Assembly (NCBI RefSeq): GCF_900302465.1
Contig: NZ_OMOR01000001.1
Location: forward strand, 2,046,001 to 2,110,000
Source of the DNA: Ascidiaceihabitans donghaensis
Lineage (GTDB): Bacteria; Pseudomonadota; Alphaproteobacteria; Rhodobacterales; Rhodobacteraceae
Length of the DNA: 64,000 nt
Reading direction: 5' to 3'
The notes below the pieces were generated by a model, which saw only the letters and a program-made list of their open reading frames with translations, made no database searches and had not been told where the DNA came from. The position numbers and the translations under genes are program-made. Of this stretch, positions 37,124 through 41,981 are shown piece after piece. The first letter of the stretch is position 1; each line of letters begins with the position of its first letter.

Positions 37124-37788
37124 AGTTTAAAGAATATCCTGACCGCGAAATGCTTGTGATGGACGTGGCCCAGCAAATTGTGACTGATTTGAATATGGCC
37201 CTCGTCGGTCCAGACCGTGTATCGATTGCCGTTCCCGGCGGCACCACGCCGGCACCCATTTTCGATGTGCTGTGCGCGGCTGATCTGGACTGGGCCCGCG
37301 TGGATGTGCTTTTGACAGACGAACGGTGGGTGCCTGCGGATCATGCCCGCTCAAACGCAGGGTTGCTTTATCGGCACCTGTTGATGGACAGGGCAGCTGA
37401 CGCGCATTTTGTGCCGTATTACGTAGAAGGCATGAAGGCCAAAGAGGGGGCCGCGCAGACCTCTGGGCTGATTGAACAGCATGTGCCGCTGGACGTTGTT
37501 GTGCTTGGCATGGGCGCCGATATGCACACGGCCTCATTGTTTCCCGGTGCGTTGGGACTGTCAGACGCTATGGCTGCAGATGCGCCGCACTTATGTGCGG
37601 TACAAGCAGAAGGCCAAGAACCCCGCGTGACGTTAAGCGCAGCAGTTTTGAACAGTGCTGTGCAAAAACATCTTGTGATATTTGGCGATGACAAACGCGC
37701 AGCATTGGACGCTGCTATGGATGCGCAACCCGAAGACGCGCCAATCAGCGCCGTGGTACAGGGGGCAACGGTACATTGGGCCGCATGA
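37120..37788 (+). CDS. pgl: 6-phosphogluconolactonase
   Basis: This 222-residue enzyme hydrolyses 6-phosphogluconolactone to 6-phosphogluconate. The NagB-like fold is shown by SIAVPGGTTPAPIFDVL, the LLTDERWVPADHARSNAGLL block (about residues 66-85), and VVLGMGADMHTASLFPG. The typical DEXXH-like active-site histidine lies in MGADMHTASLF. The start at 37120 overlaps the zwf stop (ATGA) and the end overlaps the pgi start in the same way. Confidence 0.95.
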   Translation: MKFKEYPDREMLVMDVAQQIVTDLNMALVGPDRVSIAVPGGTTPAPIFDVLCAADLDWARVDVLLTDERWVPADHARSNAGLLYRHLLMDRAADAHFVPYYVEGMKAKEGAAQTSGLIEQHVPLDVVVLGMGADMHTASLFPGALGLSDAMAADAPHLCAVQAEGQEPRVTLSAAVLNSAVQKHLVIFGDDKRAALDAAMDAQPEDAPISAVVQGATVHWAA

Positions 37789-39386
37789 CATTTTCAGACG
37801 CATGGGCGGACGTAGAAGTCCGTCATGCCGCAACCGCAGACCGTAAATTTCTATCTTTGTTTGACGACACCGGCCGTGCCGATACGTTTCGGTGTGATAC
37901 CTCTGACATGCGGTTGGACTATTCCAAAACCAACATTGACGCCGAAACCCGGGACGCCTTGTTGGCACTGGCCGAAGCTGCCGATGTCGCGGCGCACCGC
38001 GATGCAATGTTCAGCGGCCAAAAAATCAACCAGACCGAAGGCCGCGCCGTGTTGCACACCGCATTGCGCAATCTGGATGGGGGTCCGGTTCTGGTGGATG
38101 GCACTGACGTCATGCCGGGCGTTTTGGACACGCTGGGGCGGATGGGGGTCTTTGCGGACGAAATTCGATCCAGCCATATCACTAATGTCGTCAACATCGG
38201 AATTGGTGGCTCTGATCTTGGTCCTGCCATGGCCGTGCAGGCCCTAAGCCCATATCATGACGGACCGGCGGTGCATTTTGTGTCCAACGTCGATGCAGCA
38301 GATGTTTCTGATACATTGCGTGGCCTTGATCCCAAAACGACACTGGTGATTGTGGCATCCAAGACATTCACAACTGTTGAGACCATGACCAACGCACGCA
38401 CCGCACGGGCATGGATGTCAGAGGGCGGTGGCGATCCGGGCACACAGTTTGCAGCCCTGAGCACCTCGGAGGATGGCACGTCGCAGTTTGGCATTCCACC
38501 CGAACGCGTGTTCGGATTTGAAGATTGGGTGGGGGGGCGCTATTCGCTGTGGGGGCCAATTGGCCTAAGCCTTATGATTGGCATCGGTCGGCGCGGGTTC
38601 ATGGCGTTTTTGCGCGGTGGACAGGCGATGGACCTACATTTTCAGGCAGCACAAGGCGCTGAAAACATGCCTTTGATGCATGCATTGGTCGGGATTTGGC
38701 ACAACCAGTTCTGCGGGCACGCCACCCGTGCCGTGTTGCCTTACGATCAACGTCTGGGGCAACTGCCAGCTTATTTTCAGCAGCTTGAAATGGAAAGCAA
38801 TGGCAAGTCTGTGCGGATGGACGGATCGGATGTTCCTGTGCACACAGGCCCCGTTGTATGGGGGGCGCCTGGCACCAACGGCCAACACGCGTTTTACCAG
38901 TTGATCCATCAAGGCACCCGCACGATCCCGTGCGAATTCATGATTGCCGCGCAGGGTCATGAGCCGGATCTGGAACATCACCATCATTTGCTGGTGGCCA
39001 ATTGCCTCGCGCAATCGGAAGCTTTGATGCGCGGGCGGTCTACAGATGAAGCCCGCGTTTTGATGCGTGAGAAAGGTTTTGAGGGTGCAGAGCTAGACCG
39101 TCAGGCCGCCCACCGTGTGTTTTCTGGCAATCGTCCTTCTGTCACTTTGGCGTACCCTAAGCTGGACCCCTTTGTTCTGGGGCAAATCATAGCACTTTAT
39201 GAGCACCGTGTGTTTGTTGAGGGTGTCATTCTGGGCATCAATTCGTTTGACCAATGGGGCGTGGAATTGGGCAAAGAGCTTGCAACGGCGTTACAACCTG
39301 TTGTGGAGGGTGCGCAAACTGCGGACGGTAAAGACGGGTCGACACAAGCGTTGGTCGATTTTGTGCAACGACACCGCGTCCCTTAG
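37785..39386 (+). CDS. pgi: Glucose-6-phosphate isomerase
   Basis: This 533-residue enzyme interconverts glucose 6-phosphate and fructose 6-phosphate. IGIGGSDLGPAM, the signature SDVPVHTGPVVWGAPGTNGQHAFYQLIHQG (with the catalytic glutamate earlier, in LEMESNGKS), and the C-terminal EHRVFVEGVILGINSFDQWGVELGK are present. I start at the ATG at 37785, which overlaps the pgl stop. The stop codon TAG is unusual: its TA is the target dinucleotide of a MITE-like element and its G is the first base of that element. Without the insertion the codon would read TAA. Confidence 0.96.
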   Translation: MTFSDAWADVEVRHAATADRKFLSLFDDTGRADTFRCDTSDMRLDYSKTNIDAETRDALLALAEAADVAAHRDAMFSGQKINQTEGRAVLHTALRNLDGGPVLVDGTDVMPGVLDTLGRMGVFADEIRSSHITNVVNIGIGGSDLGPAMAVQALSPYHDGPAVHFVSNVDAADVSDTLRGLDPKTTLVIVASKTFTTVETMTNARTARAWMSEGGGDPGTQFAALSTSEDGTSQFGIPPERVFGFEDWVGGRYSLWGPIGLSLMIGIGRRGFMAFLRGGQAMDLHFQAAQGAENMPLMHALVGIWHNQFCGHATRAVLPYDQRLGQLPAYFQQLEMESNGKSVRMDGSDVPVHTGPVVWGAPGTNGQHAFYQLIHQGTRTIPCEFMIAAQGHEPDLEHHHHLLVANCLAQSEALMRGRSTDEARVLMREKGFEGAELDRQAAHRVFSGNRPSVTLAYPKLDPFVLGQIIALYEHRVFVEGVILGINSFDQWGVELGKELATALQPVVEGAQTADGKDGSTQALVDFVQRHRVP

Positions 39387-39695
39387 GCTCAGGACCCATT
39401 CATCTTAATGCCTCAGCGCGATTTTCGTGGCACCGGAGGCGCCCCTTCGGGGCAACATATCAGAGGCTTGGGACGCGACGATAAGAGTGGTTCTCTTTTC
39501 AAGCGGCGCAAGACGCTGAGATGTCGCCCCTTTGGGGCGCAGAGATGAAGTAAAAATCGCGTCTCCGATTTCCCTGATTTGGCCCGTGACTATCGTTGCA
39601 TCTGCTTGAAATAGAACCACTGTTCCCGCGCAACTGCGCCTCATCATAAATCAAATCAGGAAAACTGAGGTATTAAGATGAATGGGTCCTGAGCC
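39386..39695. mobile_element. MITE-like non-autonomous element with long terminal inverted repeats, inserted in the pgi stop codon
   Basis: The 310-bp unit is bounded by near-perfect terminal inverted repeats. Positions 39383-39416 match the reverse complement of 39665-39698 with one mismatch in 34 bp, starting GGCTCAGGACCC. The element core GGCTC...GAGCC is flanked by TA on both sides, as expected for a TA target duplication (IS5/IS427-like or IS630-like enzymes). The interior has no transposase frame but carries subterminal inverted repeats: 39417-39425 with 39553-39561, 39486-39504 with 39604-39621, and 39573-39581 with 39652-39660. This accounts for almost all of the 369-bp gap between pgi and the thioesterase gene. 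The remaining bases up to 39755 show nothing I can name. Confidence 0.75.
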
Positions 39696-39755
39696 TAAGC
39701 GTCGGACTGGGGCCAGCCCCAGACCCCGAGGTTTACATTGCGAGATGAAGACGGA

Positions 39756-40235
39756 TCAGGGGGCTTGGACTGCCCCATCCGTGTGTGTCAGCTTTTGCTT
39801 AATGTCGTCGGGGATCGGCTGGCGCCCCGTGCCGTCTTGTTTCAGCAGCACCATCACGCAATCAAACGTCGCACGTTTACGCCCCTGCGCCCAAATCGTT
39901 TGACACAGCGTAAGCGACGTTGTGCGCATTTCTGTACACCGCGTGGTCACGATGTAGTCTTCGTTGCGCAGCATCTCTTCTATGTAGCGTACGCTTCCGC
40001 CGCGCACCACGATGCGCGGGCTGGTTTCGTCACCGATTGTGCCAATGTTGTGCATTTCCATAAATCGCACCCGCAATCGTTCAAACCACACAAAGTACCG
40101 CACGTTGTTCACATGCAGCAGTGCGTCCAATTCATCGTGGTGCACGCGGTCGGCAAAGGCCAAAGGGGCGGGTTCCGTGATACCTTCGGCGCGTTGCTCG
40201 GCCTCGGACAGGTTGGTATGATAACGTGGTGACAT
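39756..40235 (-). CDS. Acyl-CoA thioesterase, 4-hydroxybenzoyl-CoA thioesterase fold
   Basis: This 159-residue hotdog-fold protein of the YbgC/FadM type hydrolyses acyl-CoA thioesters. The catalytic region HHDELDALLHVNNVRYFVWFERLRVRFME (about residues 31-59) has the aspartate-leucine-x-x-histidine-valine-asparagine pattern of the family. I use the ATG at 40235 (MSPRYHTNL); the upstream extension would run into the divergent ligase promoter. Divergence from a DmdB-like acyl-CoA ligase suggests a common acyl substrate, but this is inference. Confidence 0.82.
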   Translation of the reverse strand: MSPRYHTNLSEAEQRAEGITEPAPLAFADRVHHDELDALLHVNNVRYFVWFERLRVRFMEMHNIGTIGDETSPRIVVRGGSVRYIEEMLRNEDYIVTTRCTEMRTTSLTLCQTIWAQGRKRATFDCVMVLLKQDGTGRQPIPDDIKQKLTHTDGAVQAP

Positions 40236-40358
40236 AACGTCACCAACTAGCGATCCGGCATGGGGCTTGCAAGCGCGTGTCTGCACATGCAGGGTCTGCA
40301 CCAAGGGAGAGCGCCATGGTTTTGTATGGCGCGTGTTAAAGAAAATTGGGAGGTGCCA

Positions 40359-41981
40359 ATGCTTGGCCAAATGATGACATCCGCTTTGACCATTTCGTCA
40401 CTTGTGGATCACGCCGCGCGCTATCATGGGAAAACCGAAGTGTTTTCCGTAAATACAGGCGGGGGGATCGAGACCACCAGCTGGGGGGAAGTCGGCGCGA
40501 ATGCGCGGCGTTTGGGCGACGTCTTGACCAAATTGGGCATTGAACCACAATCGCGCTGTGCCACCATCGCATGGAACAACCGCCGCCATCTTGAGATTTA
40601 CTTTGGTGTGTCTGGTGCGGGTTTCGTATGCCACACCATCAACCCACGCCTTTTCCCGGAACAGTTGGTCTACATCATCAACCACGCCGAAGACAAAGTG
40701 CTGTTTATTGATGCGACATTTGTACCTTTGGTGGCTGCCATTCGCGACAAATGCCCCCATTTGGAACATGTTGTGTTGATGGAGGGGCGCGACGAAGAGG
40801 CCGCAGCCAAAATCGAAGGTTTGAAATTCTACGACGACTTCATTGCCGAAGGCGACGCTGGCTTTGTGTGGCCCGAGATCGACGAAAACACGGCGTCATC
40901 CCTGTGCTATACCTCAGGGACCACGGGCAATCCCAAAGGCGTTCTTTATTCGCACCGCTCGACTGTGTTGCACGCTTTTGCGTCCAACCTGAAAGACTGC
41001 ATTGGCAATTCGGCGATGGATGTTGTTCTGCCTGTTGTGCCCATGTTCCACGTCAATGCCTGGGGCACGCCCTATGCCTGTGCCATGGTGGGCGCACGTA
41101 TGGTGATGCCGGGGCCTGGTCTGGATGGCGCGTCGTTGGTGAATTTGATCGACACCTACAACGTCACCACGGCTTTGGGTGTTCCCACAATTTGGCTGGG
41201 GCTATTGGGCGAGGCGGAAAAAGCGGGATCAAAGCTGGAAAGCCTGACACGCACGGTTGTGGGCGGATCCGCTTGCCCGCCGTCGATGATCGACACGTTC
41301 CGCGACATATACAACGTCGAAACCATTCACGCTTGGGGCATGACAGAGATGTCGCCACTTGGCACAGCAAACCAGCCGTTGGCCAAACATGGCGATTTGC
41401 CGCAAGTCGAACAAAACAAGCTGCGCGAAAATCAAGGACGCCCGGTTTGGGGTGTTGAGATGAAGATCGTCGATGACACAGGTTCCACTTTGCCCGAGGA
41501 CGGCGAAGCCCAAGGCGATTTGTTGGTGCGGGGCCATTGGGTTCTGGACGCCTATTTCCGCAAAACCAGCGATGAGACCCTGACAGACGGTTGGTTCGAT
41601 ACGGGCGATGTGGCAACCATCGACCCTGATGGCTATCTCAGCATCAAAGACCGGTCCAAGGACATCATCAAATCTGGCGGCGAATGGATTTCGTCCGTGG
41701 ATCTGGAAAACATCGCCATTGCCCATCCCGATCTGGCCAATGCGGCTGTCATCGGGGCGCGTCACGAAAAATGGGACGAACGCCCCATTCTGATTGCCGT
41801 GAAAGCAGAAGGGTCTGACCCAAGTGCGGCTGACGTTCTGGCGGCCTTTGATGACAAGATTGCCAAATGGCAAATACCGGATGAAGTCGTCTTTGTTGAT
41901 GCGCTGCCTTTGGGGGCAACTGGCAAAGTCCTAAAGCGCAAGCTGAAGGAAGAATTCGGCGAAGTTTTGATCGGCAAGTGA
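40359..41981 (+). CDS. Acyl-CoA ligase, DmdB-like (3-methylmercaptopropionate- or medium-chain acid-CoA ligase)
   Basis: This 540-residue AMP-forming ligase has the P-loop [19 protein letters not shown] (about residues 182-200), the A5 motif [12 protein letters not shown] and the catalytic C-terminal lysine in [14 protein letters not shown]. The N-terminus MLGQMM...[13 protein letters not shown] and [23 protein letters not shown] are very like those I recall for Roseobacter DmdB, which acts on 3-methylmercaptopropionate in DMSP demethylation. The family also contains ordinary medium-chain fatty acid ligases. Start 40359 has GGGAGG 6 bp upstream. No other dmd gene is in the window. Confidence 0.85.

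Follow-up and report, generated by a model that had tools for sequence, protein, structure and literature searches.

A folded miniature element, probably mobilized by IS5-family transposases, frequently occupies stop codons in Ascidiaceihabitans donghaensis and related bacteria

The stop codon of the glucose-6-phosphate isomerase gene (pgi) of A. donghaensis is built in part by a 314-bp element which, judging from its sequence and that of its relatives, is probably a non-autonomous MITE on which IS5-family transposases of IS711 type act in trans. The element belongs to a family of marine-type bacteria whose copies are statistically enriched in stop codons and whose interior is kept by compensatory changes. 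Common insertion in stop codons, a fold backed by covariation and an interior that travels with different ends are properties that had been missed in the first reading of this locus.

The window analysed is a stretch of 64,000 nucleotides of contig NZ_OMOR01000001.1, in which genes resembling those for glucose-6-phosphate dehydrogenase (G6PD) and 6-phosphogluconolactonase lie upstream of pgi. The features are as follows (the element and its parts carry no strand):

37776..39386, plus strand: pgi, glucose-6-phosphate isomerase, a listed ORF whose TAG stop is built with the element (Pfam PGI, E 7e-185)
39384..39697: whole element with both TAs, 314 bp (310 bp between the TAs), from the sequence
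39384..39385: left TA, a target-site copy and the first two bases of the pgi TAG (sequence; family YTAR target)
39696..39697: right TA, a target-site copy (sequence; family YTAR target)
39384..39416: left terminal inverted repeat (repeat search; family helix 1)
39665..39697: right terminal inverted repeat (repeat search; family helix 1)
39417..39561: arm A hairpin (limits by eye; family helices 2-5)
39439..39454: part of an extra GC-rich insertion on the 5' side of arm A, not present in copies L002, L003 and L009
39483..39497: arm A tip, AAGAG-TGGTT-CTCTT (sequence; helix 5 of the family alignment)
39525..39540: part of the matching GC-rich insertion on the 3' side of arm A, also in L002 and L003, not in L009
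39568..39664: arm B hairpin (limits by eye; family helices 7-10)
39610..39624: arm B tip, AATAG-AACCA-CTGTT (sequence; family alignment)
39756..40370, minus strand: thioesterase-like ORF, convergent, on the far side of the element (ORF list; Pfam search)

The original prediction of a MITE-like insertion at a TA within the pgi stop codon agreed with the junction (CCT TAG GCTCAGGACCC ... GGGTCCTGAGCC TA AGCG), the TA at both ends and the presence of multiple copies. As it had also proposed, the TAG consists of the target TA and the first G of the element, the ORF ending at 39386, and Pgi was left whole, as indicated by its match to Pfam PGI. The expected 310 bp without a transposase were found between the TAs, the only ORF of at least 80 aa within the element having 80 aa and no Pfam match. 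The inverted ends carry the single mismatch described before and measure 33 bp counted from the TA, the former length of 34 bp being reached when one flanking base is included; the repeat search ran the arms on into the flank (40 nt at 93%). At 314 bp the pgi copy exceeds the usual family length of about 266 bp, and its effect is most likely near neutral, that of a spacer between two convergent genes with the stop preserved. A promoter reading of the element found no support.

In 11 genomes of the same genus that carry pgi, the element was absent from the 57-77 bases shown after the stop codon; a search of these genomes for the element gave no copy in 10 of them and, in the other one, none near pgi. 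The pgi genes of these relatives end about one codon before the A. donghaensis stop (TAA in 9, TAG in 1 and TGA in 1), and the conversion of TAA into TAG that had been proposed is suggested by the nine TAA codons, by inference alone; the literal empty site expected, CCTTAAGCG, was not seen in any of the 11. A clearer comparison involves a Pseudosulfitobacter plasmid, where the element makes the TAG of an ABC-transporter ATP-binding gene, the protein ending ...ELVAQFADR (from translation, the gene being unlisted in the record); the other end of this copy is CA, not TA. Plasmids of Salipiger, Alloyangia and Thioclava hold the same convergent pair without the element; their protein ends ...NR at the corresponding codon, which is TGA, TGA and TAA, respectively. 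Two further plasmid regions examined showed no empty site, and the exact within-genus comparison covered genera with just 2 and 1 genomes.

Three other near-full copies (identities of 88, 88 and 70%) and several diverged ones are present in the A. donghaensis genome (4.08 Mb), in keeping with the several copies anticipated. Using the pgi copy as the query, similarity search gave matches in only 3 of 61 relatives, the A. donghaensis genome included. The pattern of the element ends, TAGGSTCAGGACCCATTMAT with one mismatch, occurred in 123 of 394 genomes of the same family, a number in which full ISs are counted too, and the reversed-pattern control gave 0 among the matches listed. The inner motif (at most two mismatches) was found in only 18 of these 394 genomes; the interior is sparse in the family. 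A pattern combining end and motif recovered 98 stretches from the genome collection; of the 80 titles listed, 78 are names that we take to belong to the Rhodobacteraceae in the wide sense (Sulfitobacter, Phaeobacter, Ruegeria, Lentibacter and Thiosulfatihalobacter among the carriers), and the remaining two are named Proteobacteria or Alphaproteobacteria only. One copy matched 11 plasmid records. The combined pattern had no match in viral contigs, nor did one copy used as the query in phage records.

Pairing of the ends produced 106 raw pairings, reduced to 97 elements once overlaps and two spurious cases had been taken out. The scan of genome contigs, whose pattern demands that the motif be intact and that the spacing in one arm be close to normal, supplied 81 of the 97. 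A length of 264-269 bp was shared by 80 of the 97. The 81 copies of 257-269 bp had a median pairwise identity of 71% and formed 31 clusters at 88%, and the longest ORF among 30 representatives encodes 82 aa.

In one genome, three copies 99% identical to one another occupy three loci, and their similarity ends within 3 bp of TA...TA. A YTAR target was found for 90 of the 97 copies and TA at both ends for 85. Candidate autonomous elements with the same ends, 833-877 bp long and with a two-ORF transposase, were found in related genera (L055, L056, L063 and L069), the ends in one genus reading TAGGCTCAGAACTC / TAGGCTCAGGACCCATTAATC around an IS5-family transposase. The ORFs of L063 match Pfam DUF4096 and DDE_Tnp_1; against the NCBIfam IS5 family model (cut-off 110) the second ORF scored 141.6 bits and the first 99.4, below the cut-off. 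The full-length IS with the same ends that had been foreseen exists in other genera, and the A. donghaensis genome gave 0 matches for it with one transposase query. In the accessible text of PMC2266754 and PMC3163539, IS711 is described as duplicating TA at YTAR and as having two overlapping frames and a length of about 840 bp. With IS711, similar IS5-family elements and the MITEs derived from them, the element shares the TA duplication at YTAR, and its ends are those of the ISs identified in the related genera; it differs in lacking a transposase, in its conserved two-armed interior and in its enrichment in stop codons. The group to which these IS5-family elements belong is presumably that named IS427. 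A transposase of this IS711 type would act in trans on the element, inserting it at the TA of YTAR.

The same inner motif was also found with ends TAGGGCGTAGACCYATAA in three of six genomes chosen for it, from three genera. The 11 elements with this second end type measure 265-268 bp (6), 310-381 bp (4) and 162 bp (1), and 5 of the 11 lie in stop codons; the reversed control for these ends gave three matches in genome G014. An IS with corresponding ends was located as well:

L334 1416-2367 (genome G248): IS5-type IS, 952 bp, whose ends, TAGGGCGTAGACCTATAA, match the second end type

Its two ORFs match DUF4096 and DDE_Tnp_1. This IS lies in one of the three genomes just mentioned and had been missed by the motif test. 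Further end variants around the inner motif are also present. That the element might be a decayed internal-deletion derivative of one IS would fit the match of its ends to IS5-type elements; however, the interior shows conservation between genera and is combined with two end types that clearly differ, so that it is not the remnant of a single IS, and the pgi copy has no Pfam match. We consider such an origin very improbable.

For the 90 copies with flanks of at least 300 bp (7 of the 97 fall short of this), genes were called with a simple home-made caller based on codon usage. The stop codon was hit exactly in 44 copies (TAA in 16 and TAG in 28), 41 copies were intergenic and 5 lay within called genes. 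As background we took the other YTAR sites of these loci that do not lie in gene interiors, 690 in all, with 86 at stop codons and 604 intergenic. The resulting odds ratio against these other non-coding YTAR sites was 7.5 (6.1 and 8.4 at stricter gene-calling thresholds); it was again 7.5 when stratified by tetranucleotide. Restricted to convergent regions it was 7.3, and restricted to the 60 bp next to a gene end it was 3.6. A logistic model adjusted for flank GC, CTAG and position, which used 69 of the 90 insertions (those at YTAR sites with called genes on both sides), gave a stop odds ratio of 4.1, GC and CTAG being favoured too. Flank GC was 0.655 at used and 0.596 at unused stop sites, and 0.593 and 0.534, respectively, elsewhere. 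The 48 stopped genes are mutually different, with three similar pairs at 30-49% identity, and 28 of the 44 stop insertions lie between convergent genes. A hairpin at the target site was also considered as a determinant of insertion and had no effect beyond that of GC.

The base that follows the TA is G at both ends of the element, so that an insertion in a TAR stop always leaves TAG and an unchanged protein, in whichever orientation. We infer that a preference for certain sites (CTAG, GC-rich flanks) accounts for part of the enrichment, and that the remainder comes from insertions that survived because they did no harm and perhaps from genuine targeting. Stop codons truly targeted by the transposition machinery, through sequence context or through the termination of transcription or translation, would go beyond tolerance, and we give this idea appreciable weight while leaning against it. 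It is favoured by the odds ratios that persist in convergent regions, after stratification by tetranucleotide and after adjustment for GC, CTAG and position, by the second-end-type elements in stop codons, and by the description of IS711 site choice as unexplained in the available part of PMC2266754. Used sites are GC-richer than unused ones, however, so that unmodelled context may explain more, and the odds ratio drops close to gene ends. The ends of full-length ISs were in stop codons in only 2 of 56 cases, although this class is an unfair control for targeting, since only 6 of the 56 IS ends have a pointing gene within 100 bp, 2 of these 6 being in stops; the other comparison classes gave 0 of 23 (contig-end), 2 of 19 ('other') and 3 of 22 ('short').

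Palindromic micro-elements of 40-62 bp consisting of the terminal inverted repeats (TIRs) only, with the same ends, were found at four places in the A. donghaensis genome:

C1:3102712-3102751: TIR-only micro-element L239
C1:3446128-3446189: TIR-only micro-element L237
C1:284892-284944: TIR-only micro-element L238
C1:3575940-3575979: TIR-only micro-element L240

Three of the four lie in the stops of called genes, a further point in favour of targeting and one indicating that the arms are not required for placement in stop codons. The exact micro-element pattern found none in 67 other genomes, an absence that is weak because the same pattern recovers only 1 of the 4 known in the A. donghaensis genome. 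One micro-element occupies the stops of two convergent genes together.

As a single strand, the pgi element is predicted to fold more stably than any of 100 shuffled sequences (z -10.1), and in the 30 representatives a terminal stem and two hairpin arms form a predicted three-way junction. The structure alignment (A1) covers 30 of the 31 clusters, L101 being left out. Over its 87 pairs, 94.4% of the cells are paired, and double changes occur in 65 pairs; double-change cells number 422, compared with 119 in shuffled and at most 78 in slid controls, the structure having been predicted from the same alignment. This very strong covariation shows that the predicted interior, two hairpin arms inside a terminal stem, is kept by compensatory changes. 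At the tip of arm A the TGGTT loop is mostly the same from copy to copy, and the stem that closes it varies (TAG/CTA, GAG/CTC, GTG/CAC, GGC/GCC). The arm B tip hardly changes across the family, and its loop, AACCA, reads as the reverse complement of the loop in arm A. The element is not a palindrome of two halves, as just the first 30 bp or so are complementary, and the arms are therefore separate hairpins.

A strand-specific role of the RNA should favour G-U over A-C pairs. Among the 80 pairs common to both strands, the ratio of G-U to A-C was 61:45 (p 0.14), with 29:11 in arm A and 10:14 in arm B; over the 81 copies it was 119:79 (p 0.005, a value that ignores relatedness). Of the two strands, that of the alignment had the greater stability in 22 of 30 representatives (p 0.013). 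On the transcribed strand of the 37 copies with genes pointing from one side only there were 36 G-U and 61 A-C pairs, the other 44 of the 81 being ambiguous or without a pointing gene (37) or having short flanks (7). As wobble pairs are mildly favoured or not favoured at all, the constraint may act on DNA, and the pairing may be kept at the DNA level or through a process that treats the two strands almost alike, a conclusion that we draw without certainty.

These counts bear directly on the possibility of a device working in RNA, with hairpins that terminate or protect the pgi mRNA and an element kept behind genes for its benefit. The very stable predicted RNA fold, the covarying helices, the frequent position between convergent genes and the mild excess of G-U on one strand, both over the 81 copies and in arm A, would all suit such a role. 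Nevertheless, A-C exceeds G-U on the transcribed strand, and the orientation of the element with respect to the stopped gene shows no clear bias (21:27; 13:24, p 0.10). Nor was the new terminator suggested by the original prediction supported: no intrinsic terminator was detected within 39384-39697, the two hits lying outside at 39337 and 39820, and runs of five T are absent from the first and last 20 bases in 30 of 30 representatives. We regard a function of this kind as unlikely.

Selection for structure has a competitor in a mutational process, template switching in quasi-palindromes, which would produce the compensatory changes by itself; we place this explanation only somewhat short of an even chance. 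The near equality of G-U and A-C (61:45) is what it would lead one to expect, and in the pgi copy the 5' and 3' sides of arm A bear matching GC-rich insertions, of which L002 and L003 have only one. On the other hand, there is hardly any variation at the arm B tip, the TGGTT loop mostly stays as it is while its stem changes, and 80 of the 97 copies hold to 264-269 bp, even if the pattern used for the search was biased toward normal spacing in one of the arms. The paired GC-rich insertions, only one of which is present in sister copies, look as if the arm had been re-templated; the matched insertions fit either an aid to transposition or mutual re-templating of the arms. In the mechanism that we propose, the pairing would, less surely than the other steps, be kept at the DNA level, with the folded DNA aiding movement; alternatively, the hairpin arms might re-template each other during replication. 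Taken further, the element could be a DNA parasite with a fold-selected interior whose ends can be swapped, the three-armed DNA being the working part for varied IS5 transposases, and it could be steered to stop codons with its leading G sparing the host protein, a picture that we consider rather doubtful.

An IHF site has been reported in some Correia/NEMIS elements; the IHF consensus WATCAANNNNTTR, which is degenerate in nature, was matched by 0 of 30 representatives of the present family. Correia/NEMIS, RUP and ERIC elements, as described in the accessible portion of PMC2229807, resemble it in their shortness, TA termini, inverted ends and stable fold. The present family differs from them in its length of about 266 bp, its two covarying arms and its IS5-type ends. 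GANTC, the CcrM methylation site, occurs at all in only 2 of the 30 representatives; with just two occurrences in about 8 kb of representative elements, it may be avoided. The CIR elements of Caulobacter and Brucella have in common with it a two-armed predicted fold and alphaproteobacterial hosts, as far as the text available from PMC2229807 indicates. CIR elements differ in carrying GANTC at a loop, whereas the present family rarely contains it and has in addition a terminal stem with IS5-type ends. QMITE2 of Coxiella is likewise a structured MITE, and in the part of PMC5896051 available one copy lies at a gene's 3' end; its duplications are longer, 7-9 bp according to the accessible part of PMC10969869, and enrichment in stop codons is not described for it in the available sections of these two papers.

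According to a recent review, prokaryotic MITEs are typically AT-rich and tend toward AT-rich intergenic regions (PMC10969869, in the portion accessible). The family contrasts with such MITEs in its interior kept by covariation across genera, its two end types matching IS5-type elements and its GC-richer sites. In the literature covered, which took in few subscription papers, neither the family nor its enrichment in stop codons is described, including the accessible parts of PMC5896051, PMC2229807, PMC3646047, PMC2266754, PMC3163539 and PMC10969869. That roughly every second copy examined forms a stop codon would represent a simple route to harmless spread. The site choice of IS711-like elements becomes testable at YTAR sites with and without a stop codon, and the family offers a case for telling DNA-level from RNA-level constraint on a fold.

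With respect to known RNAs, Rfam gave two weak hits in 39000-40000, both below the gathering score, and one 6S-like hit in five loci with copies, also below the gathering score and outside the element. This 6S RNA-like match, at L080 5842-5994, falls just below the gathering score and lies about 125 bp from an element.
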